This document shows, piece by piece, positions 1,165-45,821 of a DNA stretch of 48,358 nt. The position numbers and the translations under genes are program-made. The notes beneath the pieces were generated by a model, which made no database searches, was not told the origin of the DNA, and saw nothing but the letters and a program-made list of their open reading frames with translations. The stretch spans positions 1 through 48,358 of the IMG/VR virus record IMGVR_UViG_3300042562_000315, one strand, 5' to 3'. This DNA comes from a virus. Numbering within the stretch: position 1 is the stretch's first letter; each line of letters opens with the position of its first letter.

Positions 1165-1235
1165 CGCGGTTTAGTGTAATTGGCAGCATTCCGGGCTCAT
1201 AACCCAGAGGCGAGGTTCGAGTCCTTGATCCGCAA
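1165..1235 (+). tRNA. tRNA-Met (CAT anticodon), initiator-like
   Basis: The sequence folds as a cloverleaf. The acceptor is CGCGGTT/ATCCGCA with discriminator A, the T8 A9 linker is canonical, and the D-arm contains AATTGG. The anticodon arm is CCGGG/CCCAG with loop CTCATAA, the variable loop is three bases, and the T-arm is CGAGG TTCGAGT CCTTG. Two hallmarks of bacterial initiator tRNA are present: an unpaired C1/A72 and three consecutive G:C pairs next to the anticodon loop. The CTCATAA loop matches the initiator loop. Against it, the D-stem pair 11:24 is U:A as in elongators, and positions 6:67 and 28:42 mismatch. CCA is not encoded. The gene sits 14 bases before the first late gene. Confidence 0.8.
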
Positions 1236-1249
1236 CTAAAAACAACATT

Positions 1250-8103: not shown

Positions 8104-9267
8104 ATGAACAGAACAACGTGGCAAATTTATGGGTTAAAAAAAAGTGGAACGTTTACATCAACTTGGAATACTGCTAATGTTTCAACCGGGTCAAGTACTA
8201 ATACTCAAATTAAGCTTCCATTAGAATCTACAGGAACATATAATTTTATAGTTGATTGGGGAGATGGGACTACCGATAATATTACAGTTTGGAATCAAGC
8301 TCAAGTTACTCATACTTATAGCGCAATAGGCACTTATACAGTAAAGATTGAAGGATTAATATTAGGATGGAGATTTAGTCAAGCCAATACTGATGCATTA
8401 AAAATACTAACAGTTACAAAATGGGGTTCTTTACATTTTGGTAATAATGGAGGAACTTTTCAAGGATGTCAAAATGTAACTATGAGTGGTATTACAGATA
8501 TACCTAACTTAACAGGGATAACAACATTAGCTAATAGTTTTTCTTTTTGTAATTCTATAAGTACAATAGGAAGGCTTAATGAATGGGATATATCTAATAT
8601 CACTAGTCTTAGTTTTATGTTTGCTACTCAAGGTTCTAGTTGGACTGGTGTAGGTGTATTCAATCAAAATATTGGAGCTTGGGACGTATCAAGTGTTACA
8701 AATTTTAGTGGAATGTTTAGGTTTTGTGCTTTGTTTAATAATGGCAATAGTCCTGACATACAAAATTGGGATATGTCAAGTGCAATTAATTTAGCTGCTA
8801 TGTTTAGTAGATGTCAAGGATTTAATCAACCTATAGCAAATTGGGAAAGAACAACTCCTACAGTGTCTACTCTTGTCAATGTTACTACTATGGCTAATAT
8901 GTTTGATTCAGGAAGACAAGCTTGGGCATTTAATCAGCCAATAGGAAATTGGAATGTAAGTAATGTCACTAATATGACGGCTATGTTTAGTAGAAGTGTA
9001 TTTGCTCAAGATATTAGCGATTGGGATGTTAGAAAAGTTACTACTATGACAAGTTTTGGAATAAGACTTTCAGGTTCTGGTGGTATATTTATTCCTTTTA
9101 CATCAGCTCAATTAGACGCAATGTATAATAAATGGAGTTTATTATCACCATTAAAAATAGGAGTAAATTTAAACTTCACTCAAGTAAGCACGGTTGCAGG
9201 AGCAGCGGGCAAAGCTATTTTAACAAGTGCTCCTAATAATTGGGTAATTACCGAAGGAACAGGATAA
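8104..9267 (+). CDS. PKD plus DUF285 (BspA-type) repeat adhesin (387 aa)
   Basis: Residues about 35-83 form a PKD-like domain, with the signature DWGDGTTDN (51-59) and HTYSAIGTYTVKI. From about 155 onward come repeats of the DUF285/BspA type: WDISNIT, WDVSSVT, WDMSSAI, WNVSNVT, WDVRKVT, each followed by an MF or similar hydrophobic pair. Such repeats are usual in Bacteroidota and Mycoplasma surface proteins and bind host or matrix ligands. The gene begins two bases after fibre 2 and has no signal peptide, so it is likely a virion fibre or fibre-tip protein. Horizontal exchange of these repeats with host surface proteins is plausible. Confidence 0.8.
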   Translation: MNRTTWQIYGLKKSGTFTSTWNTANVSTGSSTNTQIKLPLESTGTYNFIVDWGDGTTDNITVWNQAQVTHTYSAIGTYTVKIEGLILGWRFSQANTDALKILTVTKWGSLHFGNNGGTFQGCQNVTMSGITDIPNLTGITTLANSFSFCNSISTIGRLNEWDISNITSLSFMFATQGSSWTGVGVFNQNIGAWDVSSVTNFSGMFRFCALFNNGNSPDIQNWDMSSAINLAAMFSRCQGFNQPIANWERTTPTVSTLVNVTTMANMFDSGRQAWAFNQPIGNWNVSNVTNMTAMFSRSVFAQDISDWDVRKVTTMTSFGIRLSGSGGIFIPFTSAQLDAMYNKWSLLSPLKIGVNLNFTQVSTVAGAAGKAILTSAPNNWVITEGTG

Positions 9268-9501: not shown

Positions 9502-10119
9502 ATGATTATATTAAACTGGATTAAAAAAAATTTCTTTAACACTATTATACTAATACTAATAGCAGTTATTCTTTTACAGAAATGTAATAAAGATAACATC
9601 CCTACTGAGCAACCTTCTGTTAAGACAGATACAGTGTGGGTAGTTAAACAGAACACTGTGATTACTAAACCTACATTAGTTAAAACTATTCCAGGAGTGT
9701 CAGATACTAGCTATGTGCCAGACCCAAATCACGCTAAGCTTGTATTACAATATACTAAGTTAGCGGAAGAATACCTAGCTCTTAATATATATAAAGACAC
9801 AATTAAATTGGATAGTATAGGGCATGTGTATATTAACGATACTGTAAGCAAAAACAATATTACTTATAGAAAAGTTGCTTGGGATTTAAAATATCCAACT
9901 ATAACTAAAACAATCACCCTTCCGCCTCTTAGAACTAATCAAGTCTATTATGGAGGGGGTTTACAAGGAGGGCAAGGCCAACTTATTAATCAATTTAACG
10001 TAGGAGTTCTTCTTAAAACAAAATCAGATCAAATATATAATGTATATACAGGTCTTGACGCAAATGGTCAAGCACAAGTAGGATTACAAGCTTATTGGAA
10101 AATAAAATTAAGGAAATAA
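9502..10119 (+). CDS. membrane-anchored spanin-like protein (205 aa)
   Basis: One N-terminal membrane helix (about residues 11-27) is followed by C28 and a long soluble region. The Cys lies at the end of ILLQKC, which is not a good lipobox. Residues 35-110 look extended and polar. The C-terminal third contains a Gly-rich stretch (YYGGGLQGGQGQ) and ends in a basic patch. The position between a holin-like protein and the endolysin supports an outer-membrane disruption (spanin) role in a Gram-negative host. It matches no classical i-spanin or u-spanin that I can name. Confidence 0.55.
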   Translation: MIILNWIKKNFFNTIILILIAVILLQKCNKDNIPTEQPSVKTDTVWVVKQNTVITKPTLVKTIPGVSDTSYVPDPNHAKLVLQYTKLAEEYLALNIYKDTIKLDSIGHVYINDTVSKNNITYRKVAWDLKYPTITKTITLPPLRTNQVYYGGGLQGGQGQLINQFNVGVLLKTKSDQIYNVYTGLDANGQAQVGLQAYWKIKLRK

Positions 10120-10124
10120 TTATT

Positions 10125-10541
10125 ATGGTAACATCAGTACAAGCTTTAAAAAAATATGGTGACCCGGTTAAAGAATTAGGAATGACTCTTTGGGACGTGC
10201 CAACAGAATTAGAAATAGGTGTAATTCCTAAAAGACTTTATTGTAATAGAGATATGATAAAGCCTTTATCAGAAGCTTTTAAAAATCTTATCGACAGAGA
10301 ATTTGTTAAAGAACTTAAAACTTTTGATGGTTGTTTTAACATAAGGGCCAAAAGAGGATCATCTTCTCCTTCATTACATTCATGGGGAATAGCTATTGAT
10401 GTTAATGCTGCTTGGAATGGTTTACATAAAACTCCACAACTATCTGCAGGATTTGTAAAATGTTTTACAGATGTTGGATTTGATTGGGGAGGAATTTGGA
10501 CAAGAAAAGATGGAATGCACTTCCAACTTAAATCTATTTAA
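10125..10541 (+). CDS. M15-family peptidase endolysin (138 aa)
   Basis: The core SLHSWGIAIDVN (residues 83-94) and DGMHFQL (129-135) give the zinc ligands H85, D92 and H132 of the VanY/L-alanyl-D-glutamate peptidase M15 family, with D129 as probable catalytic acid. It would cut peptide stems or cross-links in the cell wall. The size matches single-domain phage M15 endolysins; there is no signal peptide, so export depends on the holin. I use ATG 10125; the frame is open from a TTG at 10095, but that would overlap the preceding gene. Confidence 0.9.
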   Translation: MVTSVQALKKYGDPVKELGMTLWDVPTELEIGVIPKRLYCNRDMIKPLSEAFKNLIDREFVKELKTFDGCFNIRAKRGSSSPSLHSWGIAIDVNAAWNGLHKTPQLSAGFVKCFTDVGFDWGGIWTRKDGMHFQLKSI

Positions 10542-11367: not shown

Positions 11368-11460
11368 TGAGCAAGGAACCGTTTAATTTAATTTTAAGTA
11401 TTGTAAAATAACAGTAAACTATGTAATATATAAACTATACAAATCAAATCAAATAAAATT

Positions 11461-13005
11461 ATGTCAGACGCTATAGTCAAGAATTTAAGTTTCGGAAAAG
11501 AAGCTAGTGATAAAGTATTTGCTGGAATAGAGAAATTATCTAGGGCAGTTAGTTCTACCTTAGGAGCAAGTGGTAAGTGTGTTCTTTTAGAAGATTCTTC
11601 TGGAAGACCAGTAATTACAAAAGATGGGGTTTCTGTCGCTGATTCTATTATTTTATTAGATCCAGTAGAAAACATGGGAGCAACACTTTTAAAAGAAGCA
11701 GCTAGGAAGACTGTTAGAGAAGCCGGAGACGGAACTACTACAGCAACTGTTTTAGCACATGCTATTTTAAAAAACGCTTATGCCATAGAAAATCCAAATG
11801 CTAGAAAGATAAAAGAAGGAATAAATAAAGCCGCTGATAAAGTTATAGAATATCTTGAAAAACACTCTATAGTTGTAGAAGGAGATATGTTAGATCAAAT
11901 AGCAACTATATCTACAAATAATGACGCTGAATTAGGTAAGATAGTAGGAGATGCTTTTAGGTCTGTAGGTAATACTGGAATTGTTATGATGGAAACATCT
12001 TCAGATCCAGAATGTAGTTTAGAAATAGTAGAAGGAGTACAATGTAACATGGGTTTAACTAACTCTCACTTTGTAACAAATCAAAAAAATAAAACAGCAG
12101 AACTAGATAATCCTTTGGTATTATTAGTAGAATCTCCAATACAATCTATTAGACAAATTCAATCTGTATTAGAGTATATTATAAAAAACAATAAATCATT
12201 GCTTATAATAGCAAACATGGAACAGGTAGTTCTAACTACATTAGCAATGAATAAGTCTAAAGGTAATTTAAAAGTAAACGTAATTAATGCACCTACTTTT
12301 GGAATAAACAGAAAAGAGACCTTTGATGATCTAGCGTTATTAACTAACGCAGTATTAATAAACGAAGACTTAGGCGATGATTTAGACTTAATACAACCAG
12401 AAATGTTAGGTACATGTATTAAGAGTATAACGAATCACGAAGAAACTATTCTTCACGTTGGAGATAGTTCTGAAGAGGTATTAGATATAATTAAAGATAT
12501 TAAAAAGTCTTTATTAGAAAATAATACAAGTCCACAAGTTATAAAATTAGAAAAAAGACTAGCACGTTTAACTGCTAAAATAGCCGTAGTTAAAGTTGGT
12601 GCTAATTCGGAAATAGAGTTAAAAGAAAAAGCAGATAGAATAGAAGACGCTATTTGTGCAACAAAAGCAGCTATTAAAGAAGGTATTGTTGCGGGTGGTG
12701 GAATTGCTTTGTTGAATGCATCTTATAACATAGATACTTTTTCAATTGGAGAAGAAATATTATTAGATTCTATCAGAGCACCTTTTAAAACTATACTAGA
12801 CAACGCTGGAATTGAAGACGCTCCTATAGAGATAATATCAAAAGTTGGGTATGGTCTCAATGTTATAACTGGAGAAACAGTTGACATGATTAAAGCAGGT
12901 ATAATCGATCCTTTACTAGTTACAAAAAGTGCTTTAAGAAACGCCGTTTCTGTAGCGACTACAATATTATCAACTGACTGTGTAATTAATAATTTAAGAG
13001 CATAA
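11461..13005 (+). CDS. groL: phage-encoded GroEL (group I chaperonin, 514 aa)
   Basis: The whole chaperonin architecture is present: equatorial, intermediate, apical, then intermediate and equatorial again. Key ATPase residues match E. coli GroEL by position: D55 in TKDGVSVA (D52), D90 in GDGTTTATVLA (D87) and D396 in IEDAI (D398), followed by EGIVAGGGIALL. The apical segment (about 190-375) is more divergent and lacks some aromatic substrate-contact residues. The C-terminus ends NNLRA without the GGM tail, and the protein is 34 residues shorter than E. coli GroEL. The stop overlaps the GroES start by one base. It probably folds virion or other phage proteins with the partner at 13005. It lies between lysis and virion genes, so host contamination is unlikely. 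Confidence 0.95.
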   Translation: MSDAIVKNLSFGKEASDKVFAGIEKLSRAVSSTLGASGKCVLLEDSSGRPVITKDGVSVADSIILLDPVENMGATLLKEAARKTVREAGDGTTTATVLAHAILKNAYAIENPNARKIKEGINKAADKVIEYLEKHSIVVEGDMLDQIATISTNNDAELGKIVGDAFRSVGNTGIVMMETSSDPECSLEIVEGVQCNMGLTNSHFVTNQKNKTAELDNPLVLLVESPIQSIRQIQSVLEYIIKNNKSLLIIANMEQVVLTTLAMNKSKGNLKVNVINAPTFGINRKETFDDLALLTNAVLINEDLGDDLDLIQPEMLGTCIKSITNHEETILHVGDSSEEVLDIIKDIKKSLLENNTSPQVIKLEKRLARLTAKIAVVKVGANSEIELKEKADRIEDAICATKAAIKEGIVAGGGIALLNASYNIDTFSIGEEILLDSIRAPFKTILDNAGIEDAPIEIISKVGYGLNVITGETVDMIKAGIIDPLLVTKSALRNAVSVATTILSTDCVINNLRA

Positions 13006-13265
13006 TGAAAGCGATAGGTGTAAATTTAATTATACAGAAAGTAAAAGAAGGTACCACTAAAACTAAAGGTGGATTAATGCTTGCCGAAAGTCAAAGAGAA
13101 GATATTAGATATATAGAAGCACAAGTAATGTCAGTAGGAGAAAACGTAGTTGGTATCAAAGAAAGAGATGTGATATTCTATGATAGACACGCTGGGCATA
13201 AAATAGAACTTGGCAAAGAAACATATCATATTATAAAAATCCAAGACGTAGTAGTTGTTCTATAA
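13005..13265 (+). CDS. groS: phage-encoded GroES-like co-chaperonin (86 aa)
   Basis: The N-terminal strand IGVNLIIQKV is followed by a mobile loop TTKTKGGLMLAES (residues 17-29). This matches the GroES loop that carries the GroEL-binding hydrophobic tripeptide (GGLML here, GGIVL in E. coli). The rest (SVGENVVGIKERDVIFYDRH, HKIELGKETYHIIKIQDVVV) follows the GroES barrel pattern. The roof region is short. It overlaps groEL by one base, in the opposite order to bacterial groES-groEL operons. This arrangement implies equimolar co-expression. It caps the GroEL chamber. Confidence 0.9.
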   Translation: MKAIGVNLIIQKVKEGTTKTKGGLMLAESQREDIRYIEAQVMSVGENVVGIKERDVIFYDRHAGHKIELGKETYHIIKIQDVVVVL

Positions 13266-13726
13266 TGAGATTAGAACCTACAGATATAAAGGAAATTGGA
13301 TTACTAAAACATTATAGAATAATAAGAAGATGGGCGTGTAGAAACAATGGTTTGACAGACGCTGACTTAGAACTTCTTATTTATTTTGATTGCATGGATT
13401 TCTTTACAAAACAAGATTTTAAAATAGGTACATACGCATATAGTTGGAACAATAGACGCTGGAACGATTTGTTGAAACAAGGTTGGATAACGATTTGGAG
13501 AGAAAGAAATCATACAACACAAAAGTATAATATATATAAAGTTTCATTTAAGTGCAAACAACTAATAAGTAAAATGTACCGAATAATGCTTGGCAAAGAA
13601 GATATACCAACTAGTAATAGAAATTCTATAATGAGTGGTAGTACGTATATGGATACTGTTATGATAACGGCTATAGAAAATACTAATAGAGATAAAACAA
13701 GAAATAACAATAATATCAATAACTAA
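13265..13726 (+). CDS. winged-helix-like DNA-binding protein (153 aa)
   Basis: Residues about 20-105 fit a MarR-like winged helix: helices (LKHYRIIRRWACRNNGLTD, LELLIYFDCM), a recognition-helix-like SWNNRRWNDLLKQGW and a beta-wing (ITIWRERNHTTQKYNIYKVS). They are followed by a helix with basic residues (CKQLISKMYRIMLGKED). The C-terminus (125-153) is Asn/Thr-rich and probably flexible. It overlaps the groES stop by one base, so it is co-expressed late with the chaperonins. It could be a late regulator or a virion DNA-binding protein; fold assignment is by pattern only. Confidence 0.5.
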   Translation: MRLEPTDIKEIGLLKHYRIIRRWACRNNGLTDADLELLIYFDCMDFFTKQDFKIGTYAYSWNNRRWNDLLKQGWITIWRERNHTTQKYNIYKVSFKCKQLISKMYRIMLGKEDIPTSNRNSIMSGSTYMDTVMITAIENTNRDKTRNNNNINN

Positions 13727-16795: not shown

Positions 16796-17023
16796 ATGGA
16801 TTCAGTTATAAGAAAAATAAGTATTGGTACGGACTATAAGAACGAAGCAATGCACTATTCCATTGGGCAACAAGTATACGGCGGTCATGAAATTGCTTAT
16901 ATCAAGTTAGATCAAACAGATTCTTCTTATAACATATATATTAAAAAAGAAGATGAGATTATGCCTTGGAAAAAGTTTAATGCTAACATGGCAATCTCCG
17001 TAGAATACGATTTGGAATACTAA
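16796..17023 (+). CDS. small conserved phage protein (75 aa)
   Basis: The sequence VIRKISIGTDYKNEAMHYSIG and WKKFNANMAISVEYDLEY resembles a small protein found in several marine and Bacteroidota phages (recalled, not searched). Its strands and lack of a hydrophobic core span suggest a compact soluble beta protein. It overlaps the next start by one base. Function unknown. Confidence 0.6.
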   Translation: MDSVIRKISIGTDYKNEAMHYSIGQQVYGGHEIAYIKLDQTDSSYNIYIKKEDEIMPWKKFNANMAISVEYDLEY

Positions 17024-17631
17024 TGAAAAGTGTATTTAATTTTATCGTGAAACCGGTAGGTGAAAGATACGATAATAAAATTAAGGTAGAAGGCAAAGAG
17101 CTAATACTGAATACTAAAATAGAAAGTTTTAAGTCTGTGAATAATTTAGCGGAGGTAATATCTACCCCGCTAGCTTATTCAAGTGATATAAAAGTAGGTG
17201 ATATTATTGTTATACATCATAATGTTTTTAGAAGATTCTATGATATTAGAGGTAATCAAAAAAATAGTAGAGCATACTTTATGGACAATATGTACTTCTG
17301 TGATATAGATCAAATTTATTTATACAAATCAGAAGGCAAATGGAAAACTCTAGGTGATAGATGTTTTATAAAACCATTAAAGAATATTGACCCTTTAAAG
17401 CTTGATAAAGAGCAACGCCTTATTGGTATATTAAAATACGGAAACAACTCCCTAAAAGAGCTTAAAATAAACGAGGGAGACCTTGTAGGTTATACTCCTT
17501 ATGGTGAGTTTGATTTTATCATAGATGGGGAACGACTTTATTGTATGAAATCTAATGATATTGTAATTAAATATGAATATAAAGGAAACGAAGCAGAATA
17601 TAATCCTAGCTGGGCACAAGGCAGTTCTTGA
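17023..17631 (+). CDS. tandem GroES-fold co-chaperonin-like protein (202 aa)
   Basis: Two GroES-like barrels are visible. Barrel 1 has FNFIVKPVGERY at the start, a strand-loop-strand VGDIIVIHHNVFRRF (58-72) and a closing CDIDQIYLY (93-101). Barrel 2 begins DRCFIKPLK (112-120), has a strand-loop-strand EGDLVGYTPYGEF and ends SNDIVIKYEY (about 179-188). Both follow the GroES pattern 'F-IKP ... GDhh ... D-h--h'. No typical GGhhL mobile loop is seen, so GroEL binding is uncertain. It sits just before the terminase genes and overlaps the next gene by 59 bases. A chaperone for capsid or packaging proteins is the likeliest role. Confidence 0.75.
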   Translation: MKSVFNFIVKPVGERYDNKIKVEGKELILNTKIESFKSVNNLAEVISTPLAYSSDIKVGDIIVIHHNVFRRFYDIRGNQKNSRAYFMDNMYFCDIDQIYLYKSEGKWKTLGDRCFIKPLKNIDPLKLDKEQRLIGILKYGNNSLKELKINEGDLVGYTPYGEFDFIIDGERLYCMKSNDIVIKYEYKGNEAEYNPSWAQGSS

Positions 17632-17848
17632 ATTAATTAAAGTTGCTGAAGAGGCGATCTTAAATAATGGAGACGATGATTTAAGCGCAGATAAATTAAA
17701 AAATGCTGCTGCTACAAAAAAATTAGCAATCTTCGATGCTTTTGAAATACTAACACGTATCGAAGAAGAAGAAAAGTTATTAGTTGAAGGAGATAAAGAA
17801 GCTGAAGTAAAAGTATTTAAAGGTTTTGCAGAAGGGAGATCTAAATAA
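17573..17848 (+). CDS. terminase small subunit candidate (91 aa)
   Basis: Immediately upstream of TerL, whose start overlaps its stop by one base, this mostly helical acidic protein (KAVLELIKVAEEAILNNGDD, KKLAIFDAFEILTRIEEEEK) has the size of small TerS proteins of podoviruses. The N-terminal helix could bind DNA, but no helix-turn-helix is clear. It overlaps the previous gene by 59 bases in another frame. TerS is inferred from gene order; sequence alone is weak. Confidence 0.6.
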   Translation: MNIKETKQNIILAGHKAVLELIKVAEEAILNNGDDDLSADKLKNAAATKKLAIFDAFEILTRIEEEEKLLVEGDKEAEVKVFKGFAEGRSK

Positions 17849-20070
17849 TGTACGAGCAAACTTTATATAAAATAATACCAGACTATATAAAGTCAAGTGT
17901 TATTAAGCAGGACAATCGTTTAAAAAAATGGAAGTATGGGTATAATAAAGACCATGATGTGGTTGTTATTAGTAAAACTGGAAAGATTGGTGAAATTATT
18001 GAAATCCAAAATTTAAAAATAGCTTTACCATTATCTGAAAACCCTTATTCCAGGTCTTCTAAAAAAGAAGAACAATATTGGGAACAAATGAGTTACCCAA
18101 AAGAAATAAGTAAAATAAAAAGCACGTTTGATTGGAACAAGCAACCTGATGTATTTAAAGACAGATGGTATGATTATATTGATAACGAGTTTAAGTATAG
18201 AGAGGAAGGTTTATTCTTTTACAACAACGGTAAACCCACTTATATAACAGGTACGCACTATATGTACTTGCAATGGAGTAAAATAGATATTGGTGCTCCA
18301 GATTACAGAGAATCAAATAGATTATTTTTTATATTCTGGGAAGCTTGTAAAGCAGATCTTAGATGTTACGGAATATGTTATTTAAAGAATAGACGTTCTG
18401 GATTCTCATTTATGTCATCTTCTGAATTAGTTAACTTGGCCACCATATCAAGTGACTCTAGATTTGGTATATTATCAAAATCGGGAGCAGATGCTAAAAA
18501 AATGTTTACCGACAAAGTTGTTCCAATATCAATAAATTATCCTTTCTTTTTTAAACCTATTCAAGATGGTATGGATAGACCTAAAACAGAATTAGCTTAT
18601 AGAGTACCTGCTTCTAAACTTACAAGAAAGAAACTTGATACTAATGATAAAGCTGAAGAGATGGACGGGCTTGATACTACTATTGACTGGAAAAATACAG
18701 GTGATAACAGCTATGATGGTGAAAAATTAAAACTGTTAGTTCATGATGAAAGTGGTAAATGGGAAAGACCTGATAATATATTAAACAACTGGCGAGTTAC
18801 TAAAACAACTCTTAGATTAGGTAGTAGGATTATTGGTAAGTGTATGATGGGTTCAACTTCAAATGCTTTAGATAAAGGAGGGGAGAATTTTAAAACACTT
18901 TATTATAATTCAGATGTTACAAAAAGAAACCGCAATGGACAGACTAGCTCAGGACTATATAGTTTGTTCATACCTATGGAATGGTCGTACGAAGGATTCA
19001 TTGACACTTATGGCTTACCTGTATTCGACACTCCAGAAAAACCAGTCAACGGAGTTGATGGTGGAGAAATAGTATATGGTGTTATTGAACATTGGCAAAA
19101 TGAAGTTGATGGTTTAAAATCTGATCAAGATGGTCTTAACGAATACTACAGACAGTTTCCAAGAACAGAACAACACGCGTTTAGAGACGAAGCAAAACAA
19201 TCTTTGTTTAATCTTACTAAGATATATGAGCAAATAGATTATAATGAGGATTTAAGAAATACAAGCATTATAACTAAAGGAAGTTTTCAATGGGAAAATG
19301 GTATACCAGATACTAGGGTTATTTTTTACCCAAACAGAGACGGTAGATTTTTAATATCATGGATACCACCTCAACATTTACAAAATAACGTAGTTATTAA
19401 AAATGGTAGTAAATATCCAGGTAATGAGCATTTAGGAGCTTTTGGATGTGACCCTTATGACATATCAGGAACTGTAGATGGTAAAGGATCTAATGGAGCA
19501 TTGAGTGGATTAACTAAATTCTCAATGGACGAAGCACCTGCTAATAGTTTCTTTTTAGAATACATTGCTAGACCTCAGACTGCTGAGATATTTTTTGAAG
19601 AAGTTTTAATGGCATGTGTATTCTACGGTATGCCAATACTAGCAGAAAATAACAAACCTAGATTACTTTTTCATTTTAAAAGAAGAGGTTACAGAGGTTA
19701 CTCAATGAATCGACCAGATAAAATATATGCTAAATTATCTATAACAGAAAAAGATATTGGTGGAATACCAAACTCTAGTGAGGATATTAAACAAGCTCAC
19801 GCCGCTGCTATTGAATCATATATAGAAGACCATGTTGGTTTTACAGAAAATGGATTTGGTTCAATGTACTTTAATAAAACATTAAACGACTGGGCAAGAT
19901 TTAATATAAATGATAGAACAAAACATGATGCTTCTATTAGTTCTGGATTAGCGATAATGGCTTGCAATAAGAATAGATATACTCCAAACAACCCTATAAT
20001 TAGACAGGTGCATAATTTAGGAATTAAAAAATATGACAATACAGGTTCTTCATCAAAAATATACAAATGA
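17848..20070 (+). CDS. terL: terminase large subunit (740 aa)
   Basis: The ATPase half has an altered P-loop region (CYLKNRRSGFSFMSSS, residues 177-192) without the usual GKS/T, and a Walker B LLVHDESGKW with D300 and E301. A coupling motif GSTSN follows at 335-339. The nuclease half starts with an acidic residue after a strand, GAFGCDPYDISG (D535). The length (740 aa) is large for a podovirus TerL but usual for Bacteroidota and crAss-like phages. It packages DNA through the portal. The start overlaps the upstream small gene by one base and the stop overlaps the portal start by four. Confidence 0.85.
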   Translation: MYEQTLYKIIPDYIKSSVIKQDNRLKKWKYGYNKDHDVVVISKTGKIGEIIEIQNLKIALPLSENPYSRSSKKEEQYWEQMSYPKEISKIKSTFDWNKQPDVFKDRWYDYIDNEFKYREEGLFFYNNGKPTYITGTHYMYLQWSKIDIGAPDYRESNRLFFIFWEACKADLRCYGICYLKNRRSGFSFMSSSELVNLATISSDSRFGILSKSGADAKKMFTDKVVPISINYPFFFKPIQDGMDRPKTELAYRVPASKLTRKKLDTNDKAEEMDGLDTTIDWKNTGDNSYDGEKLKLLVHDESGKWERPDNILNNWRVTKTTLRLGSRIIGKCMMGSTSNALDKGGENFKTLYYNSDVTKRNRNGQTSSGLYSLFIPMEWSYEGFIDTYGLPVFDTPEKPVNGVDGGEIVYGVIEHWQNEVDGLKSDQDGLNEYYRQFPRTEQHAFRDEAKQSLFNLTKIYEQIDYNEDLRNTSIITKGSFQWENGIPDTRVIFYPNRDGRFLISWIPPQHLQNNVVIKNGSKYPGNEHLGAFGCDPYDISGTVDGKGSNGALSGLTKFSMDEAPANSFFLEYIARPQTAEIFFEEVLMACVFYGMPILAENNKPRLLFHFKRRGYRGYSMNRPDKIYAKLSITEKDIGGIPNSSEDIKQAHAAAIESYIEDHVGFTENGFGSMYFNKTLNDWARFNINDRTKHDASISSGLAIMACNKNRYTPNNPIIRQVHNLGIKKYDNTGSSSKIYK

Positions 20071-22472
20071 ATATATACACAAATACAAATAGCGCATTTC
20101 CTAGTCAAGTCGTACCTGATGCGGTTAAAGCTTCCGAAGAATATGGATTGCAAGTATCACGTGCTATAGAACAAGAATGGTTTGACCAAGGTAGAACCAC
20201 GGGTAATAGATACTTAACTAATTGGAATAATTTTCATCAATTAAGATTATATGCTAGAGGAGAACAGTCTGTTCAAAAGTATAAAGATGAATTAGCTACA
20301 AATGGTGATATTTCATATTTAAACTTAGATTGGAAACCAGTACCTATTATATCTAAATTTGTTGACATCGTAGTTAATGGTATGTCTCAGAAAGGTTATG
20401 ATATAAAAGCGTATGCTCAAGATCCAGAATCTTTAAAAGCAAAAACAGAATATGCTCAATCTATATTAAGAGATATGCATTCTCAAGATTTAATTGAAAA
20501 AGCTAAAGAATTAATAGGTGAAGACTTTTCTAGTTCTACACTTAAAAAAGATGAACTTCCTGAGACTAAAGAAGAGTTAGAATTGCACATGCAATTAAAT
20601 TATAAGCAATCTATTGAGATAGCAGAAGAAGAAGCTATTAATAACGTACTAGCACAAAACAAGTGGGACTTAACTAAGCGTAGATTAAATTACGATTTAA
20701 CAGTATTAGGTATTGCATGTACTAAAACAAACTTTAACGTTAGTGAAGGTATTAAATTAGAATATGTTGATCCAGCTTATTTAGTTTACTCTTATACTGA
20801 AGATCCAAACTTTGAAGATATATACTATGTTGGAGAAGTTAAAGCAGTTACAATACCAGAATTAAAAATGCAATTTCCTAGTCTATCAGAAGAGGAATTA
20901 AAGCGAATTCAGGAAATGCCAGGTAATAGACAATATATAACTGGTTGGGGTAATTATGATGAAAACACTGTTCAAGTATTATATTTCGAGTATAAGACTT
21001 ATATGAATCAAGTTTTTAAAATAAAGTATGGAGAAAACGGAATGGAAAAAGTCATTGAAAAAACAGACGATTTCAATCCACCTCAAAACGATAAATTTGA
21101 TAGAGTATCTAGAACTATAGAAGTACTATATACTGGAGCTAAAATCCTAGGTACTAATACAATGTTAGAATGGAGATTATCTGAAAACATGTCTAGACCA
21201 TTTGCAAATATGACAAAAGTTGAAATGAACTATGTTATCACTGCTCCTAGAATGTATAAAGGTAGAATAGATTCATTAGTAAACAAGGTAACAGGTTTTG
21301 CTGATATGATTCAGTTAACACATCTTAAATTACAACAAGTAATGTCTAAGATGGTTCCTGATGGAGTATTTGTTGATGTAGATGGTCTTGCTGAAGTTGA
21401 CTTAGGTAATGGTACAAACTATAATGCTGCTGAAGCATTAAATATGTATTTCCAAACTGGTAGTATAGTTGGTAGATCTTTAACACAAGAAGGTAACGGA
21501 AATCCAGGTAAAGTACCAATTCAAGAATTAAGTAGTTCATCAGGTCAAGCTAAGATAGCTTCGCTTATACAAACTTATCAATATTATTTACAACTTATAA
21601 GAGATGTTACTGGACTTAATGAAGCTCGTGACGGAAGTATGGTTGATAAAGATACATTAGTAGGACTTCAAAAGATGGCCGCTAATGCGTCAAATACTGC
21701 TACTAAACATATTTTACAGTCTAGTTTATTTCTGACCCTTAGAGCGTGTGAAAATGTTTCGTTAAGAATTGCAGATTGTTTAGATTATCCATTGTTAGCA
21801 AAAACATTAGAAGAAAGTATAACTTCATATAATGTATCTACTTTAAAAGAAATGAAATATCTAAACTTGTATGAGTTTGGTATTTACTTAGAACTAGAGC
21901 CAGATGAAGAAGATAAAGCTTTATTAGAACAAAATATACAAGTAGCATTACAGAGTGGAGGTATAGACCTTGACGATGCTATTGATATTCGTCAGATTAG
22001 AAATTTAAAACTAGCTAATCAAACTTTAAAATTCAGAAAAAAGAAAAAACAAAAAGCCGCTCAGGAAGCTCAGATGGCTAATATACAAGCGCAAGCTCAA
22101 GCGAATCAACAGACTGCAGAAAAAGCAGCTTTATTTGAAGTTCAAAAACAACAAGCATTAACTCAGGAAACTGTTAATGTAGAACAAGCTAAATCTCAAT
22201 TTGAGATACAAAGAATGCAAGCCGAAGCTCAAATAAAGAAACAACTAATGGAAGCGCAGTTTCAATATGATATGCAACTAGCACAGATTAAAATGCAAAC
22301 CATTGATAAAAACTTACAAACAGCCGAAGATAGAAAAGATGCTAGAACAAAAATACAAGCAACTCAACAATCAGAGTTAATAGATCAACGTAAAAACAAT
22401 TCTTTACCAAAAGATTTTGAAGGTCAAGATTTAGGTTTTTCAGATGAATCAATTCAATCGTTCGGAATGTAA
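20067..22472 (+). CDS. portal protein (801 aa)
   Basis: Order (directly after TerL), length near 800 residues and an N-terminal half with mixed alpha/beta content support a portal. The C-terminal 150 residues are a long Gln/Ala-rich helix (QANQQTAEKAALFEVQKQQ), the barrel-like extension common in Bacteroidota podovirus portals. The protein would form the dodecameric vertex ring for DNA entry and tail attachment. Its start overlaps the TerL stop. No enzymatic motif is expected or seen. Confidence 0.85.
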   Translation: MNIYTNTNSAFPSQVVPDAVKASEEYGLQVSRAIEQEWFDQGRTTGNRYLTNWNNFHQLRLYARGEQSVQKYKDELATNGDISYLNLDWKPVPIISKFVDIVVNGMSQKGYDIKAYAQDPESLKAKTEYAQSILRDMHSQDLIEKAKELIGEDFSSSTLKKDELPETKEELELHMQLNYKQSIEIAEEEAINNVLAQNKWDLTKRRLNYDLTVLGIACTKTNFNVSEGIKLEYVDPAYLVYSYTEDPNFEDIYYVGEVKAVTIPELKMQFPSLSEEELKRIQEMPGNRQYITGWGNYDENTVQVLYFEYKTYMNQVFKIKYGENGMEKVIEKTDDFNPPQNDKFDRVSRTIEVLYTGAKILGTNTMLEWRLSENMSRPFANMTKVEMNYVITAPRMYKGRIDSLVNKVTGFADMIQLTHLKLQQVMSKMVPDGVFVDVDGLAEVDLGNGTNYNAAEALNMYFQTGSIVGRSLTQEGNGNPGKVPIQELSSSSGQAKIASLIQTYQYYLQLIRDVTGLNEARDGSMVDKDTLVGLQKMAANASNTATKHILQSSLFLTLRACENVSLRIADCLDYPLLAKTLEESITSYNVSTLKEMKYLNLYEFGIYLELEPDEEDKALLEQNIQVALQSGGIDLDDAIDIRQIRNLKLANQTLKFRKKKKQKAAQEAQMANIQAQAQANQQTAEKAALFEVQKQQALTQETVNVEQAKSQFEIQRMQAEAQIKKQLMEAQFQYDMQLAQIKMQTIDKNLQTAEDRKDARTKIQATQQSELIDQRKNNSLPKDFEGQDLGFSDESIQSFGM

Positions 22473-23694: not shown

Positions 23695-25161
23695 ATGTCA
23701 AATGTGACTCCACAATTCGGTTCAATTAAACCGTCTCAAAAACAACAAGCGTTAGAAACAAATTACTTAAACTTCACAAACGGAAGTGGTAATGATTTCG
23801 CGCAACAATATTTACCAGAAGTATACGAAGCTGAAGTAGAGCGTTATGGAAACAGAACTCTTTCTGGATTCTTACGTATGGTTGGTGCTGAAATGCCAAT
23901 GTCTTCTGATCAAGTAGTATGGTCTGAACAAAACAGATTACACATTGCTTACAAAGATGTAACTTGTGCTTCTGCAACAACTTTAACTTTTGTTACTGGT
24001 GGTACTGGTGCTAACTTCGTAAACAACGTAATTTCTGTAGGTCAAACTTTAGTAGTGGCAAGTCCTTCTACTGGAAAAGAACTTAAAGTTTATGTTACAG
24101 CTTCTACTGCTGATGCCGCTACTGGAACAGGTGGTTCTACTAACCCTGCTGTTATCACTGTTAAACCTTATACTCAATTAGATTTGACTACTGGTGCTGG
24201 TAACGTAGTAAACTTTGCTTCTGCAACAGATCTTAAAATCTTTGTATACGGTTCTGAATTCAAAAAAGGAACTACTGATGCAACTATCAACTCTGTAACT
24301 CCATCTTTTACTCAATACAGTAATTCACCTATTATCATCAAAGAAAAATATCAAATCTCAGGATCTGATACTGCTCAGATTGGTTGGGTTGAAGTTGCCA
24401 CTGAAGAAGGAACAAGCGGATACTTATGGTATTTAAAAGCTGAATCTGAAACTCGTCTACGTTTTGAAGATTACTTGGAAATGTCTGTTATTGAAGGTGA
24501 ATTAGTTTCTGGTGGATCTACTTTAACTTCTGCTAACGGATTGAAAGGAACTCAAGGTCTTTTCTCTGCTGTTAAAGAAAGAGGAAATGTTGTAAATAAC
24601 TTTACTGCTGCTGCAGGTTTAAGTGATTTTGATTCAATCTTGAAAAACTTAGATACTCAAGGAGCAATTGAAGAAAACATGTTCTTCTTGAACAGAGCTA
24701 CTTCTCTTGACTTTGATGATATGTTGGCTTCTTTATCTTCTGGCGCTGCTGGAGGTGTTGCTTACGGATTGTTTGAAAACTCTGAGCAAATGGCTTTGAA
24801 CTTAGGTTTCTCTGGATTCCGTAGAGGATCTTACGATTTCTATAAGACTGACTGGAAATACTTGAATGACGCTTCTACTCGTGGAGGTATGGCTAACACA
24901 TCTATCGATGGTATCCTTATCCCTGCTGGAACATCTACAGTATATGACCAACAATTAGGTACTAACATCCGTAGACCATTCTTACACGTGCGTTATAGAG
25001 CTAGTCAAGCTGATGACAGAAGAATGAAAAACTGGATCACTGGATCTGTTGGAGGTGCTTACACTTCTGATCTTGATGCAATGCAAGTACACTTCTTGTC
25101 TGAAAGATGTCTAGTTACTCAAGCTGCTAACAACTTCGTGTTGTTTACTGCTTCAGTATAA
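23695..25161 (+). CDS. major capsid protein (488 aa)
   Basis: The gene directly follows the scaffold and has the size of a podovirus capsid protein with the HK97-type fold. The N-terminus (MSNVTPQFGSIKPSQKQQAL) is helical and acidic/neutral, then comes a long mixed alpha/beta domain with two insertions rich in Gly/Thr/Ser (about 95-190). Codons ending in C or in GCT, GGT, TCT and CGT are more frequent than in neighbouring genes, as expected for the most abundant virion protein. A strong terminator follows at 25174-25202. Assignment rests on gene order, size and expression features. Confidence 0.85.
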   Translation: MSNVTPQFGSIKPSQKQQALETNYLNFTNGSGNDFAQQYLPEVYEAEVERYGNRTLSGFLRMVGAEMPMSSDQVVWSEQNRLHIAYKDVTCASATTLTFVTGGTGANFVNNVISVGQTLVVASPSTGKELKVYVTASTADAATGTGGSTNPAVITVKPYTQLDLTTGAGNVVNFASATDLKIFVYGSEFKKGTTDATINSVTPSFTQYSNSPIIIKEKYQISGSDTAQIGWVEVATEEGTSGYLWYLKAESETRLRFEDYLEMSVIEGELVSGGSTLTSANGLKGTQGLFSAVKERGNVVNNFTAAAGLSDFDSILKNLDTQGAIEENMFFLNRATSLDFDDMLASLSSGAAGGVAYGLFENSEQMALNLGFSGFRRGSYDFYKTDWKYLNDASTRGGMANTSIDGILIPAGTSTVYDQQLGTNIRRPFLHVRYRASQADDRRMKNWITGSVGGAYTSDLDAMQVHFLSERCLVTQAANNFVLFTASV

Positions 25162-25173
25162 AAACCTGGTGAT

Positions 25174-25202
25174 ATTACCCTCGTTGAATTTACGGGGGTA
25201 AT
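25174..25202 (+). terminator. rho-independent terminator after the capsid gene
   Basis: ATTACCCTCGT pairs with ACGGGGGTAAT over 11 bp (one G-U pair) around the loop TGAATTT, followed by TATTACCTTTT. It begins 13 bases after the capsid stop codon. It would let the capsid mRNA be made in excess over downstream tail genes, with some read-through. Confidence 0.75.
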
Positions 25203-25242
25203 TATTACCTTTTAAAAAAAATTTATTAAATTATATTATATT

Positions 25243-26085
25243 ATGCCAATAGCAAAAAAAGAAATTGAAAAAGTTATTGTAACAGAATCTACAGAAGTAG
25301 AAGTTACAACCCAGAAACAAGTTGCCAAAGAAACAAAACCTAGTGCACCTGTGTGGGAAATAAAAGATAGAACATACGTTATATCTGATAGTCATGCTCC
25401 ATTAACTTACACGTTACAAGGTAAGCATACACTTAGATACCCATTATTGTGGTTTGATAAGGTAAAAGGAGAGCAAGAAGAAATAAGATATGCAACTAAT
25501 CAAAATTCGCCTTTAGTTAAAGACCAAAAAGGTCAAGCAACATTAGGTCACATTATATTTGAAAATGGTATTTTGAATGTTCCAAAAGAAAAACAAAATT
25601 TACAAAAATTATTATCACTTTATCACCCAGGTTTAAATGTTAAATATACTGAGTTTGATCCAACAGCAGAAGCTGAAGACGATTTAGATTATTTAGAATT
25701 AGAAGTTGAAGCGATGAATGCTGCTTTTAGTATGGATATTGATGAAGCAGAAGCTATAGTACGTGTCGAAGTTGGTTCTAGAGTAAATAAAATGAGTTCT
25801 AAGGAGATTAAAAGAGATTTGCTACTATTCGCTAGAAGAAATCCTTCTTTGTTCTTAGAATTAGCTAATGATGATAATGTACAATTAAGAAACTTAGCAA
25901 TTAGAGCTACAGAATCTAATATTATAAAACTATCTCACGATCAACGTACATTTATGTGGGGAGAGAATGATAGAAAATTAATGACAGTGCCGTTTGATGA
26001 AAATCCATACTCAGCAATGGCGGCTTTCTTTAAGACAGATGAAGGCGTACAAGTCTTTAAGTCTATAGAGAAAAAACTTAAATAA
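25243..26085 (+). CDS. conserved hypothetical head/neck protein (280 aa)
   Basis: The N-terminal 40 residues are polar and basic/acidic; a beta domain around YVISDSHAPLTYTLQGKHTL (residues 46-65) is followed by FENGILNVPKEKQNLQKL and a long helical part (about 145-215). The ending has DRKLMTVPFDENPYSAMAAF. I recall a similar pattern in proteins next to the capsid gene of marine phages, with no assigned function. It lies between two terminators, so it forms its own transcription step. A head completion or minor capsid role is inferred. Confidence 0.6.
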   Translation: MPIAKKEIEKVIVTESTEVEVTTQKQVAKETKPSAPVWEIKDRTYVISDSHAPLTYTLQGKHTLRYPLLWFDKVKGEQEEIRYATNQNSPLVKDQKGQATLGHIIFENGILNVPKEKQNLQKLLSLYHPGLNVKYTEFDPTAEAEDDLDYLELEVEAMNAAFSMDIDEAEAIVRVEVGSRVNKMSSKEIKRDLLLFARRNPSLFLELANDDNVQLRNLAIRATESNIIKLSHDQRTFMWGENDRKLMTVPFDENPYSAMAAFFKTDEGVQVFKSIEKKLK

Positions 26086-28186: not shown

Positions 28187-31100
28187 ATGGCAGAAATTAA
28201 AAATAATTTTCTAAGTTCAAAAATGAACCAGGACATTGATGATAGATTAATGCCTAACAATGAATACCGATCTGCTATAAATTTACAGATAAACAGGTCA
28301 GAAGGTTCAGACGTTGGTACATTACAAAATGTACTAGGTAATAAATTAACGGTAGACTTTAATGCATTAGCTGGTATAGTTGATCCAACTCCTAAATTAG
28401 AATCTATAGGTGTATTAACTGATGATTCAAATAATAATATATACGTATTCTTAACTAATTATAATGGAACAATATATAGTACAACAGCAAAGAATTATGT
28501 ATATGTGTATAATGAATTACAAAATACAACTCAATTACTAATTAGTGGTTCGTTTTTAAACTTTTCTACTCAATTTCCAATATATGGTATAAATTTAATA
28601 GAGAACTTATTGTTCTGGACTGATAATAGAAACCAACCAAGAAGAATAAATGTACAAAAAGCATCTACTAATGCCAATTATTATACAAATGAAGAGCAAA
28701 TATCAGTTGCTAGACTAAGTCCTTTATATACCCCAGAACTTTTTAAATATTCTGACTTTAATATACCACTTTTAACTTCTGGTGCAGTCGGTGTTGTCTC
28801 TGGAACTGGACCTTATACCGCAACAATTACTCCATCGCCTGTCTTTGCGTCAAGTTTATTAACTGTTGGCATGACTGTTTATGCGACTCCAGGTACATCT
28901 TCTTTTACTAGCGGTGTGGTTACAAGTATAACTACATCTGGTAGTAATGTAGCGTCATTCGTTGTGTCTTCTATAGTAATTTTCACTACTGGTAATGTAT
29001 CTTCATTAGATTTAAAACAATATGAGACTTCTATGTATGATGTTGTCAGCGAATTTTTACCTGACGGAACTACTGACAACCCTTATTTAATAGATCCATA
29101 CGCTGGAGATCCAGCTTACTTAGAAAGTAGGTATGTTAGATTTAGTTATAGATATAAATTTGAAGATGGTGAATATTCTATAATGGCTCCATTTACGCAA
29201 ATAGCTTATATACCTAAACAAGATGGTTACTTTTTATACGATACAGATCCTGTTGTAAACGATGAAGAGAGTACTTATCGAAGTACTATAGTTAGTTTTA
29301 TGCAAAATAAAGTTAATAATATACTTTTGCAAATAGCAATGCCTTATTTACCAATTCCAATAATTACACCTCCATCAACTGTACAACAATTTATTCCGTG
29401 TCCTGCTAATGAATTAAATTCCATATACAAGATAGTAGAGATAGAGATACTTTATAAAGAAGCAGACAGTATTGTGGTTAGTGTAGTTGACTCTATACCT
29501 ACAATACCTGATGCTAGTAAAGGTGTATTATATTTTTGGAATACAGACGATGTTGTTTATAATTATAATTATCAATCTAAAAAGCCATTTAAAACTTTAC
29601 CAGAACGAGATGTTATAAGGGTAAATGATATAACTCCTGTTAAAGCGTTGAGTCAAGAGGTTGCTGGAAATAGAGTTATATATGGTAATTATCAAGATAA
29701 GTTTTCATATCCAAAATACTTAGATTATAATGTAGGTGTTAGTACTAAATTTGACTTTGGATTTTTACAAAATCAAGGAACTAGTATTGTAGAATATCCA
29801 AATCATTCAGTTAAACAAAATAGAAATTACCAGGTAGGAATTATACTAGGTGATAAATTCGGTAGAGAATCAGGTGTTATATTATCAGATTTAATTAATA
29901 TTGCTGATTCTGGTTTATTTGGAGCATCTTCTTTATACGCTCCATATATAGGTATTGGAGACATTTTACCATCGACATGGCCAGGTAACTCGTTAAAAAT
30001 ACTGTTTAATAATACAATATCTCCTACTGGTCCTGACTTAGTATCAAATTGGCCTGGTTTATATAATGGAGATAAAAATAGTGCTTCTTATAATCCAACT
30101 GGTTGGTATTCATATAAGATAGTAGTTAAACAGACTGAACAAGATTATTACAATGTTTATTTACCTGGAGTAATGGCTGCTTATCCTGGAACAGCACCTG
30201 CTCCTGGTCCAACTACAGAATTAGGTAAAACATCGCATACAGTATTGATTAATGATAATATAAATAAAGTGCCTAGGGATTTATCTGAGGTAGGACCTGC
30301 TCAAAAGCAATTTAGAAGTAGTATTATTTTATATCCAAGAGTTAATAATAATACAGAACTTTATAATAACGAACAATACTATCCTGATAATACATACGCT
30401 TTCGCTAGTACAATAGCTACAAATAATTCTTTATTTTTTCCTAACGGAGTCTATCCAGTGTCACCAGATCCTGGGTTTGCAGAATTTTATCAAATTGATT
30501 CTGATCCATTGATAGCTAGAATTTCAACTGTAGCTGAGTTAGGAGTAATAGCAACTTCAAGCGTGATAAATTTAGCAGTTTATGAAACAAGACCTATAGA
30601 ATCAAAACTTGATATATATTGGGAAACATCTACAACTGGACTAATAAGCGATTTGAATACCGCGATACAATTAGGATCTGACGAAAGTATAGCTAGTTTA
30701 TCAGGTTGGACTTTTGAATTACTTGAATCTTCTTCACCTGAAACTATGGTTTCTGGAGATGGATTTGTTTTTAGAGATGTTTTAGGAGTGGAGATAACGC
30801 CTGATAATGTTGAAATAGTTTCAGTATTTACTCTTACAGGTGTTAACGTAACTAGTAAATTTACTATAGATGATACTGATAGTCCAATATATAAGATAAA
30901 AACTGCACCTGGAGCTTATTTTTACTATGGGTTTAATGCTGTTAATGCTGAATCGTATGAATTTAACATCATAGCTAGTATTGGTTCACCAGTAGTATCT
31001 GAAAATTTTATACGTACTGGTAATCTAACAAACGTATCTCCTACAATAGATGAAGATCCTGCAATACCAAATCCAATAATTAAAACTACTGGTGAAATAA

Positions 31101-31657
31101 ACGTGTATCAATTTAACGGTGTAAATGGTTCTAATCCTGCTGGTGGCAATAGTACTGCAGATTTAACTTGGAGTGTTACTGGCAATCCAATATTTACAAT
31201 AACAAGTGGCGGGTTATTACGAAACCTTAGTGGTTCTGCATCAGGAACATATAACTTAACAGTAACATTGACAGATGCAGGAGGAGCTACTGATTCTATT
31301 AATATAGTTGTTCAATATCCATTAATACAATCATTCATAATTGACGGTGATACTGAAATATGTGTAGTTTCTCCTGGAGGATATGTAGAGACATTTGGTA
31401 CTATTGAAGTATCAGGAAATGGGTGGTTTGCTAGAGTATATGCAGATGCTAATTACGATACCGAGCAAGGATACGTTGAATTAGAACTTACTCCAGTACC
31501 GTCTGGAACTACAATATTAGTATATGAAAGTTATGATTTTGGATTATTAACAGGTAATTCTCCTGTATCTATTCCATCTGGTTCTTATTCATATAGATTA
31601 GGTGTTCAAATGATAAATGGAGGTGGTTGTGGTAGATTTGAAGCTTATGATGAATAA
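28187..31657 (+). CDS. tail nozzle/stabilisation protein, N-terminal part (1156 aa)
   Basis: The start has NNFLSSKMNQDIDDRLMPNN and NEYRSAINLQINRSEGSDVG, a signature of the large 'stabilisation' or nozzle proteins of marine and crAss-like podoviruses (from memory). Most of the protein is beta-rich, as expected for a propeller-like nozzle. Residues about 960-1050 form an Ig/cadherin-like domain (GEINVYQFNG, SGTYNLTVTLTDAGG), perhaps a host-contact module. The next gene encodes what looks like the second half of the same protein, so a single ancestral polypeptide may have been split. Confidence 0.75.
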   Translation: MAEIKNNFLSSKMNQDIDDRLMPNNEYRSAINLQINRSEGSDVGTLQNVLGNKLTVDFNALAGIVDPTPKLESIGVLTDDSNNNIYVFLTNYNGTIYSTTAKNYVYVYNELQNTTQLLISGSFLNFSTQFPIYGINLIENLLFWTDNRNQPRRINVQKASTNANYYTNEEQISVARLSPLYTPELFKYSDFNIPLLTSGAVGVVSGTGPYTATITPSPVFASSLLTVGMTVYATPGTSSFTSGVVTSITTSGSNVASFVVSSIVIFTTGNVSSLDLKQYETSMYDVVSEFLPDGTTDNPYLIDPYAGDPAYLESRYVRFSYRYKFEDGEYSIMAPFTQIAYIPKQDGYFLYDTDPVVNDEESTYRSTIVSFMQNKVNNILLQIAMPYLPIPIITPPSTVQQFIPCPANELNSIYKIVEIEILYKEADSIVVSVVDSIPTIPDASKGVLYFWNTDDVVYNYNYQSKKPFKTLPERDVIRVNDITPVKALSQEVAGNRVIYGNYQDKFSYPKYLDYNVGVSTKFDFGFLQNQGTSIVEYPNHSVKQNRNYQVGIILGDKFGRESGVILSDLINIADSGLFGASSLYAPYIGIGDILPSTWPGNSLKILFNNTISPTGPDLVSNWPGLYNGDKNSASYNPTGWYSYKIVVKQTEQDYYNVYLPGVMAAYPGTAPAPGPTTELGKTSHTVLINDNINKVPRDLSEVGPAQKQFRSSIILYPRVNNNTELYNNEQYYPDNTYAFASTIATNNSLFFPNGVYPVSPDPGFAEFYQIDSDPLIARISTVAELGVIATSSVINLAVYETRPIESKLDIYWETSTTGLISDLNTAIQLGSDESIASLSGWTFELLESSSPETMVSGDGFVFRDVLGVEITPDNVEIVSVFTLTGVNVTSKFTIDDTDSPIYKIKTAPGAYFYYGFNAVNAESYEFNIIASIGSPVVSENFIRTGNLTNVSPTIDEDPAIPNPIIKTTGEINVYQFNGVNGSNPAGGNSTADLTWSVTGNPIFTITSGGLLRNLSGSASGTYNLTVTLTDAGGATDSINIVVQYPLIQSFIIDGDTEICVVSPGGYVETFGTIEVSGNGWFARVYADANYDTEQGYVELELTPVPSGTTILVYESYDFGLLTGNSPVSIPSGSYSYRLGVQMINGGGCGRFEAYDE

Positions 31658-43583: not shown

Positions 43584-43802
43584 TTATTCCGTTAATGGTT
43601 CAATATCAATAGGTGCGCTTTCTGGTTTTAATCTTTCAGTCATTAGTTTGATAGCATCGTCATAACTAGGCATTAGTTTTAAAGTTTGTAACGTTCCAGC
43701 GGCTAATGTTGTTAAATGCTGTTGTTCGTCCATTACTTGCTGTAGAACTCTAACTAAAGCTTCTACTTTATTTTTCATTTCAATTAAACTTTGTTCTTTC
43801 AT
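43584..43802 (-). CDS. small coiled-coil protein (72 aa)
   Basis: Residues 1-50 form a helical coiled coil (MKEQSLIEMKNKVEALVRVL) followed by an acidic tail. It is the last gene of the minus-strand operon and overlaps the preceding gene by four bases. No enzymatic motif is present. A small adaptor or regulator is possible, but the role is unknown. Confidence 0.65.
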   Translation of the reverse strand: MKEQSLIEMKNKVEALVRVLQQVMDEQQHLTTLAAGTLQTLKLMPSYDDAIKLMTERLKPESAPIDIEPLTE

Positions 43803-44014
43803 TTTTCTAATTCTTTAATAAGCTTTTTAATCAATTTAAACTCTCCGTGAGTAATTCCTATTGTTCTATCTGTATAATTACAAACGTTTATATCAAATCC
43901 TTCTCCATTATTCCATTCGGTTATTTCTACATAACCATGTTCTTTAGCTAAAAAATCATAATCTTTTAACGAAGAGAATATTGTTTTTCTATCGTATCTT
44001 TCTATTTCTTTCAT
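43799..44014 (-). CDS. small protein with WNNGEGFD segment (71 aa)
   Basis: Pattern VEITEWNNGEGFDINVCNYT and a C-terminal helix (HGEFKLIKKLIKELEK) suggest a small alpha/beta fold. The ATG overlaps the stop of the 44011-44163 gene (ATGA). I recall comparable small proteins in Bacteroidota phage early operons, without an assigned function. Confidence 0.65.
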   Translation of the reverse strand: MKEIERYDRKTIFSSLKDYDFLAKEHGYVEITEWNNGEGFDINVCNYTDRTIGITHGEFKLIKKLIKELEK

Positions 44015-44163
44015 TTGTCTATAGTAAATATAATATTTATGAATGGTAAATATAACACATGTGTATTGAATGTTTGTTCTTCATAGGTTCTAATTCCAAG
44101 CAGAATACCTGGATATGTGCCAATTGCTAATTCCCAACCTTTTTCATCATTGTTTAACGTCAT
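44011..44163 (-). CDS. 50-residue conserved-looking small protein
   Basis: An ATG-initiated frame encodes MTLNNDEKGWELAIGTYPGI, continues with LLGIRTYEEQTF and a hydrophobic end (VLYLPFINIIFTI). Both ends overlap neighbours tightly: its start lies inside the endonuclease gene's last 17 bases and its stop overlaps the next ATG as ATGA. That packing supports translation. Function unknown. Confidence 0.6.
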   Translation of the reverse strand: MTLNNDEKGWELAIGTYPGILLGIRTYEEQTFNTHVLYLPFINIIFTIDK

Positions 44164-45818: not shown

Positions 45819-45821
45819 AAT

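Follow-up and report, generated by a model that had tools for sequence, protein, structure and literature searches.

A phage-encoded GroEL/GroES pair with a roof-shortened lid, and a second GroES-type gene beside the terminase gene

The window analysed here, the whole 48,358-nucleotide stretch of the virus contig with IMG/VR record IMGVR_UViG_3300042562_000315, carries a complete pair of chaperonin genes on the plus strand. The first encodes a GroEL-type chaperonin of 514 aa (55.0 kDa; bases 11461–13005), identified from Pfam, PHROGs and PDB sequence matches and by residue mapping. It is followed by a gene for a small GroES-type co-chaperonin of 86 aa (13005–13265), assigned from matches to PF00166 and phrog_3188, loop lengths and an AlphaFold2 model, which has a GGLML mobile-loop motif and a short roof segment. 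The groEL stop codon and the groES start codon overlap by one base (TAATG), and the groES stop codon shares one base with the start of a 153-aa ORF taken from the ORF list (13265–13726, plus strand; phrog_17028, E = 3.3e-8). Both chaperonin ORFs are intact, as the preliminary description of this sequence had stated, and the late-operon setting that it had proposed was also borne out, with a lysis-type M15 peptidase gene (10095–10541) on one side of the pair and a terminase-portal-virion block on the other.

The second GroES-type gene (202 aa; 17023–17631, plus strand) adjoins the gene for the terminase large subunit (17848–20070; phrog_6681, E = 4e-163), and this is followed, again on the plus strand, by the portal gene (20067–22472; phrog_6547, E = 2e-147) and a gene for a virion protein of 488 aa and 52.7 kDa (23695–25161). 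The latter is a candidate major capsid protein on the basis of its match to phrog_13704 (virion structural protein, E = 7.5e-95), its position after the portal gene and its mass. The terminase is 65% identical to that of MW202828 (an uncultured podovirus from Manatee Spring), 45% identical to that of Flavobacterium Elemovirus and 42% identical to that of Maribacter phage Panino, with 38–39% identity to those of Cellulophaga phages of the Pachyviridae and Pervagoviridae. From this kinship to phages of Flavobacterium, Maribacter and Cellulophaga, we infer that the host is probably a Bacteroidota-type bacterium.

Several other features of the window were recorded. Two virion ORFs (28187–31657 and 31701–33164) gave matches to PF25731 and PF25729, the Pfam families of the crAss-phage muzzle protein, so a crAss-like tail module is common to the phage group. 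A protein of 2443 aa (36145–43476), for which PHROGs and Pfam gave no match, is placed like the very large structural proteins (approximately 1700–3900 aa) of related phages. At 8104–9267, beside tail-spike-like ORFs, lies the gene for a 387-aa protein that contains DUF285 repeats and matches PKD weakly; a DUF285 ORF is found near the chaperonin pair in Elemovirus too. The minus-strand genes at bases 43584–48205 encode a resolvase-type endonuclease, a MazG-like protein, thymidylate synthase and primase/helicase functions. There is one tRNA-Met gene (1165–1236, plus strand).

A conserved two-block promoter-like element, GTAAAA-N14-GTRATATATA, was found on the plus strand at bases 11403–11432, 58 bp before groEL, and this is its single exact match in the window. 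Of 191 distinct loci, 52 carry the element upstream of groEL, and these include 41 of the 48 in which the GroEL is at least 80% identical. In all 52 loci the spacer is 14 bp, and in 39 of them the distance to groEL is 58 bp. Elsewhere only 33 matches were detected in 3.87 Mb, a density at which approximately 0.13 matches would be expected in a search space of the same size. Because the element recurs in a fixed place with a fixed spacer and is almost absent elsewhere, it is a putative promoter belonging to groEL-groES in the subclade that carries it. A leader made up of period-5 AAATC/AAATA repeats (11441–11460, plus strand) abuts the groEL start codon. Period-5 runs of at least 8 (AAAT[CT]) were found in 48.5% of 196 groEL leaders but in only 1.9% of 1305 other ORF starts. 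The leader may be comparable to the UUAAA repeats in the operator of T4 gene 32. A search of the groEL region against Rfam gave no match.

The 514-aa protein shows Group I chaperonin homology over its full length (PF00118, 182.7 bits against a cut-off of 34.3, residues 26–510; phrog_5725, E = 1.4e-133). The three ATPase aspartates that the preliminary description had listed as retained, D55, D90 and D396 (D52, D87 and D398 in Escherichia coli), are invariant in all 196 distinct viral relatives as well as in 79 bacterial GroELs, and the complete Mg/ATP site (D52, D87, D398, D495 and G88–T91, E. coli numbering) is invariant in the window protein and the 196 relatives. Loss of the GGM tail was equally general. 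Only five residues follow the last strand in the window protein, and a GGM tail was found in none of the 196 viral relatives compared with 70 of the 79 bacterial GroELs. The divergence reported for the apical substrate region is real at five positions (Y199 to L, Y203 to H, L234 to Q, V263 to A and V264 to M) but does not extend to F204, L237 and L259, which are retained. The L234 to Q and Y203 to H changes could mean that binding of the lid or of clients has been altered or lost. Comparison with near relatives gave low dN/dS values for groEL (0.06–0.10) and groES (0.07–0.43), indicating that both are under purifying selection; the values for the 202-aa gene were 0.09–0.22.

An ATPase site preserved as a whole, in a protein that aligns end to end with ordinary bacterial GroELs (E = 1e-109; approximately 40–43% identity), is what would be expected if the pair simply provided an extra dose of chaperone, a general boost to host proteostasis during infection with no dedicated viral client. 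This is quite improbable, as changes in the apical site, the tail and the roof of the lid point to specialisation, and the chaperonin genes stand beside virion genes in a position that is kept in close relatives.

Residues at the contacts between rings have also changed. In the residue alignment the allosteric salt bridge D83–K327 is lost and R197 is mostly lost, with K or M in most cases. Alteration or shortening also affects helix Q and the loops near A109 and E434, though the columns concerned lie beside gaps and their alignment is uncertain. An apparent deletion of S463/V464 in relatives proved to be partly an effect of gap placement, the loop being approximately three residues shorter, and was not counted as a loss. 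The altered ring-ring contacts, some of them in columns that border gaps, suggest that the rings may be single, labile or easily separated.

The 86-aa protein matches PF00166 with 46.1 bits (cut-off 21.1) in addition to phrog_3188. Its mobile-loop segment is 27 residues long, compared with 24 in bacteria, and the hydrophobic motif of the loop is kept, as GGLML in the window and as G-L-x-L in the relatives, where G24 is present in 203 of 203 and L25 in 200 of 203. The roof segment is 11 residues long in 198 of the 203 relatives and a bacterial-length roof hairpin is absent, whereas nearly all bacterial proteins have a roof segment of 15–20 residues, with the Bacteroidota examples at 15 and others reaching 20. 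A hairpin of that length is typical of GroES/Cpn10 and is not a defining feature, as T4 gp31 is without one. The small lid has apparently lost its roof, and part of the shortening may be ancestral, the roof of Bacteroidota GroES being already shorter (15 residues). The AlphaFold2 model (mean pLDDT 87) is nearest to the Cpn10 structure 1wnr (Z 12.1, rmsd 1.3 over 75 residues), and comparison with gp31 in complex with GroEL (2cgt) gave Z 9.9 and rmsd 1.5 over 64 residues. The profile match to gp31 (1g31; E = 0.26) was not significant.

The order of the two genes, which the preliminary description had noted to be the opposite of that in bacteria, is a consistent property of the viral loci. In 278 of 278 viral loci with groEL, from a set in which contigs are partly repeated, groES was downstream on the same strand, and in nearly all of them it follows groEL directly, whereas groES came first in every one of the 71 bacterial loci that had the two genes. 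At least 571 stretches in IMG/VR encode a relative of the window GroEL. A search of phage genomes for adjacent genes, as had been suggested, found groEL followed by groES in Elemovirus, Panino and MW202828 and a near pair in phi38:1; in Immutovirus the order is groES-groEL. The earlier view that a matched pair beside virion genes is rarer is only partly right, as several isolated relatives carry an adjacent or near pair and the presence of both homologues in some phages is documented (PMC7185714), with both reported for Panino (PMC11590407).

In a tree of 60 proteins, the window GroEL fell in a metagenomic phage clade with 99% SH-aLRT support, and this clade was found together with Elemovirus, MW202828, Panino and phi38:1 on one side of a branch with 97% SH-aLRT support. 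A grouping of the metagenomic clade with Flavobacteriaceae GroEL was rejected (p-AU 0.008). On this phylogenetic evidence, the phage GroEL is a phage lineage outside the host GroELs. The tree has long branches, and the position of the deep root is left unclaimed. The sequence named 'Acinetobacter phage MD-2021a' was excluded from the tree, as the stretch concerned is a bacterial chromosome; the part examined (CAKLQH020000021) contains pckG, groS-groL and glpQ, and the GenBank label is likely wrong. Contamination with host DNA, for which the preliminary description had proposed a phylogenetic check, or recent capture of the genes from a host has a negligible probability. The best matches among solved structures do include ordinary bacterial GroELs and reconstructed Bacteroidota-group GroELs, but all of the neighbouring genes are phage genes, the gene order is reversed relative to bacteria and the GroEL belongs to the phage clade described above.

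The product of the second GroES-type gene is predicted to consist of two GroES-fold domains in tandem (approximately residues 1–105 and 106–186). The match to phrog_13932, annotated co-chaperonin GroES, covers the whole protein (E = 8.9e-25). The best PDB match of the model (mean pLDDT 84) is the Cpn20 of Chlamydomonas (7ekq_R; Z 9.9, rmsd 4.0, 151 residues aligned), in an alignment that spans both predicted domains (residues 1–185). Sequence profiles detect GroES in the C-terminal domain only; the N-terminal half gave no GroES match in the profile search, and its GroES fold is predicted from the model. In the profile alignment, the C-terminal domain has no G-G-L motif and its mobile loop is short by approximately ten residues. 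A loop in the N-terminal domain contains a hydrophobic stretch that is conserved. Because the C-terminal domain is without a full mobile loop, the protein was not filed as a Cpn20.

The 202-aa gene was found in 86 of the 105 groEL loci that have enough downstream sequence, and homologues lie upstream of the terminase gene in Elemovirus, Panino, MW202828, phi38:1 and phi13:2. The phi38:1 homologue of the tandem GroES-type protein is gp089 (24848–25432 of the stretch examined), which is annotated as hypothetical. Cellulophaga phage phi13:2 (NC_021803) has genes for two GroES-type proteins, one small and one large, and when a GroEL was looked for in this genome none was detected. Because phi13:2 keeps both GroES types without a GroEL, the second GroES gene is not strictly tied to a phage GroEL. 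In Gundel_1, GroEL, the small GroES and the large GroES-type gene were all undetected. A partial literature search found no description of tandem GroES proteins in phages, and novelty is thus not proven.

In 127 of 132 metagenomic loci the terminase gene starts less than 700 bp from the 202-aa gene. This association, together with the lack of a GroES mobile loop in the C-terminal domain and the retention of this type of protein in phages without GroEL (phi13:2), gives a substantial, if less than even, chance that the 202-aa protein is a packaging or head protein that has recruited a GroES fold and is not a lid. Such a role is compatible with our main view of the pair. It is countered by the fact that both PHROGs and GenBank annotators class this type with GroES, by the conserved hydrophobic stretch in the N-terminal loop and by algal Cpn20, which is an existing tandem lid. 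The tandem protein is probably an extra lid component, or a lid specific to certain clients, in head and packaging assembly.

We consider it likely that the locus as a whole specifies a phage-owned GroEL/GroES folding machine that has a roof-shortened lid, virion proteins as its putative clients and the tandem protein as a probable extra lid. The preliminary description had proposed a dedicated phage folding machine, and in identity and dedication it is judged to have been right, with the function read from sequence. Phage GroEL rings, which the altered contacts may leave single or easily separated, would bind unfolded phage proteins in a cycle driven by ATP binding and hydrolysis. The 86-residue lid would dock onto them via its GGLML mobile loop, and its short roof and long mobile loop would make the dome wider and more open, like that of T4 gp31. 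An open-topped chamber of this kind would suit virion proteins whose size approaches or exceeds the usual limit of the cage, with the client folded or held for assembly, and the tandem GroES-type protein would be added to the lid or would replace it for particular head or packaging clients. Virion proteins of 30–60 kDa would be the clients, the likeliest being the 52.7-kDa candidate capsid protein encoded at 23695–25161. The 2443-residue protein, which the preliminary description had put forward as a possible client, has a mass of 275 kDa, far above the GroEL cage size; its enclosure was ruled out on this ground, and a 275-kDa client is unlikely. At approximately 56 kDa, T4 gp23 already exceeds by a little what the GroEL-GroES cage can accommodate (PMC6318259).

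The lids could instead serve the host GroEL, as T4 gp31 does, leaving the phage GroEL to act as a lid-free holdase like those of phages EL, OBP and AR9. Proteins of that kind are known to work without a lid (PMC7185714, PMC9598537), hydrophobic positions in the apical domain of the window GroEL have changed, and phi13:2 carries both GroES types with no GroEL detected. We nevertheless regard this as unlikely, because the position of groES directly after groEL in nearly all of the 278 loci favours joint use of the phage GroEL and the small lid, and the host and phage GroELs might both be capped. A mixed lid, in which three tandem GroES proteins and one small GroES provide seven domains, or two lids that alternate for different virion clients, is conceivable but doubtful. 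We know of no two-lid chaperonin of the mixed-lid type outside plastids, and the phage case would be the first if this were true. A seven-domain mixed lid has been proposed for chloroplast Cpn20/Cpn10 (PMC3542282).

A GroEL-GroES pair in a phage is already known, and what is new here is the gp31-like lid and the three-part set of GroEL, small lid and tandem lid-like gene, which seems to be undescribed. To our knowledge, no phage chaperonin with a solved structure has a lid, and gp31 is a lid with no chaperonin of its own. The lineage examined here joins a chaperonin, a gp31-like lid with roof loss and loop lengthening, and a tandem lid-like gene linked to those for packaging. Its members are widespread in metagenomes and include cultured phages of Flavobacterium, Maribacter and Cellulophaga, so viral reshaping of a folding cage for a capsid protein is directly testable.

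Among known systems, Elemovirus (e.g. NC_062741), MW202828, Panino and phi38:1 (Callevirus) resemble the window in having their own GroEL and a small GroES, together with a GroES-type gene of 180–200 aa upstream of the terminase gene. The window GroEL is only approximately 36–39% identical to those of Elemovirus, MW202828 and Panino. In Elemovirus and phi38:1 alike, the chaperonin genes and the virion genes are on opposite strands, and in phi38:1 the order is also different (GroES, one ORF, then GroEL). The bacterial groES-groEL operon, as in E. coli and Flavobacteriaceae, has homologous subunits and the same ATPase site but differs in gene order, the GGM tail, the roof and the apical and ring-contact residues.

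Like the window GroEL, the chaperonins of EL, OBP and AR9 are phage-encoded and have remodelled ring-ring contacts. In the EL chaperonin the same bridges are lost, including D83–K327, helix D is shorter, helix Q is replaced and the ring-ring interface is remodelled (PMC7185714); the loss of D83–K327 is shared with the window protein. However, EL, OBP and AR9 have no GroES, whereas the window GroEL has an adjacent, co-encoded lid and was not placed in the lidless class. It is also closer to bacterial GroEL (approximately 40% identity) than is the EL chaperonin, for which 22% has been reported.

The 202-aa protein is like algal Cpn20 (7ekq_R) in its two GroES-fold domains in tandem, but Cpn20 is a eukaryotic organelle protein and the phage protein is without a full mobile loop in its C-terminal domain. 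In apicomplexan cpn20 both domains have a mobile loop and a roof (PMC3542282). T4 gp31 has no roof loops and longer flexible loops and serves the capsid protein gp23, and its longer loops and missing roof are held to allow this service (PMC6318259). Gp31 uses the host GroEL, is encoded without a GroEL and has no significant sequence relation to the small lid of the window, but the two are alike in their short or missing roof, their longer mobile loop and their fold.
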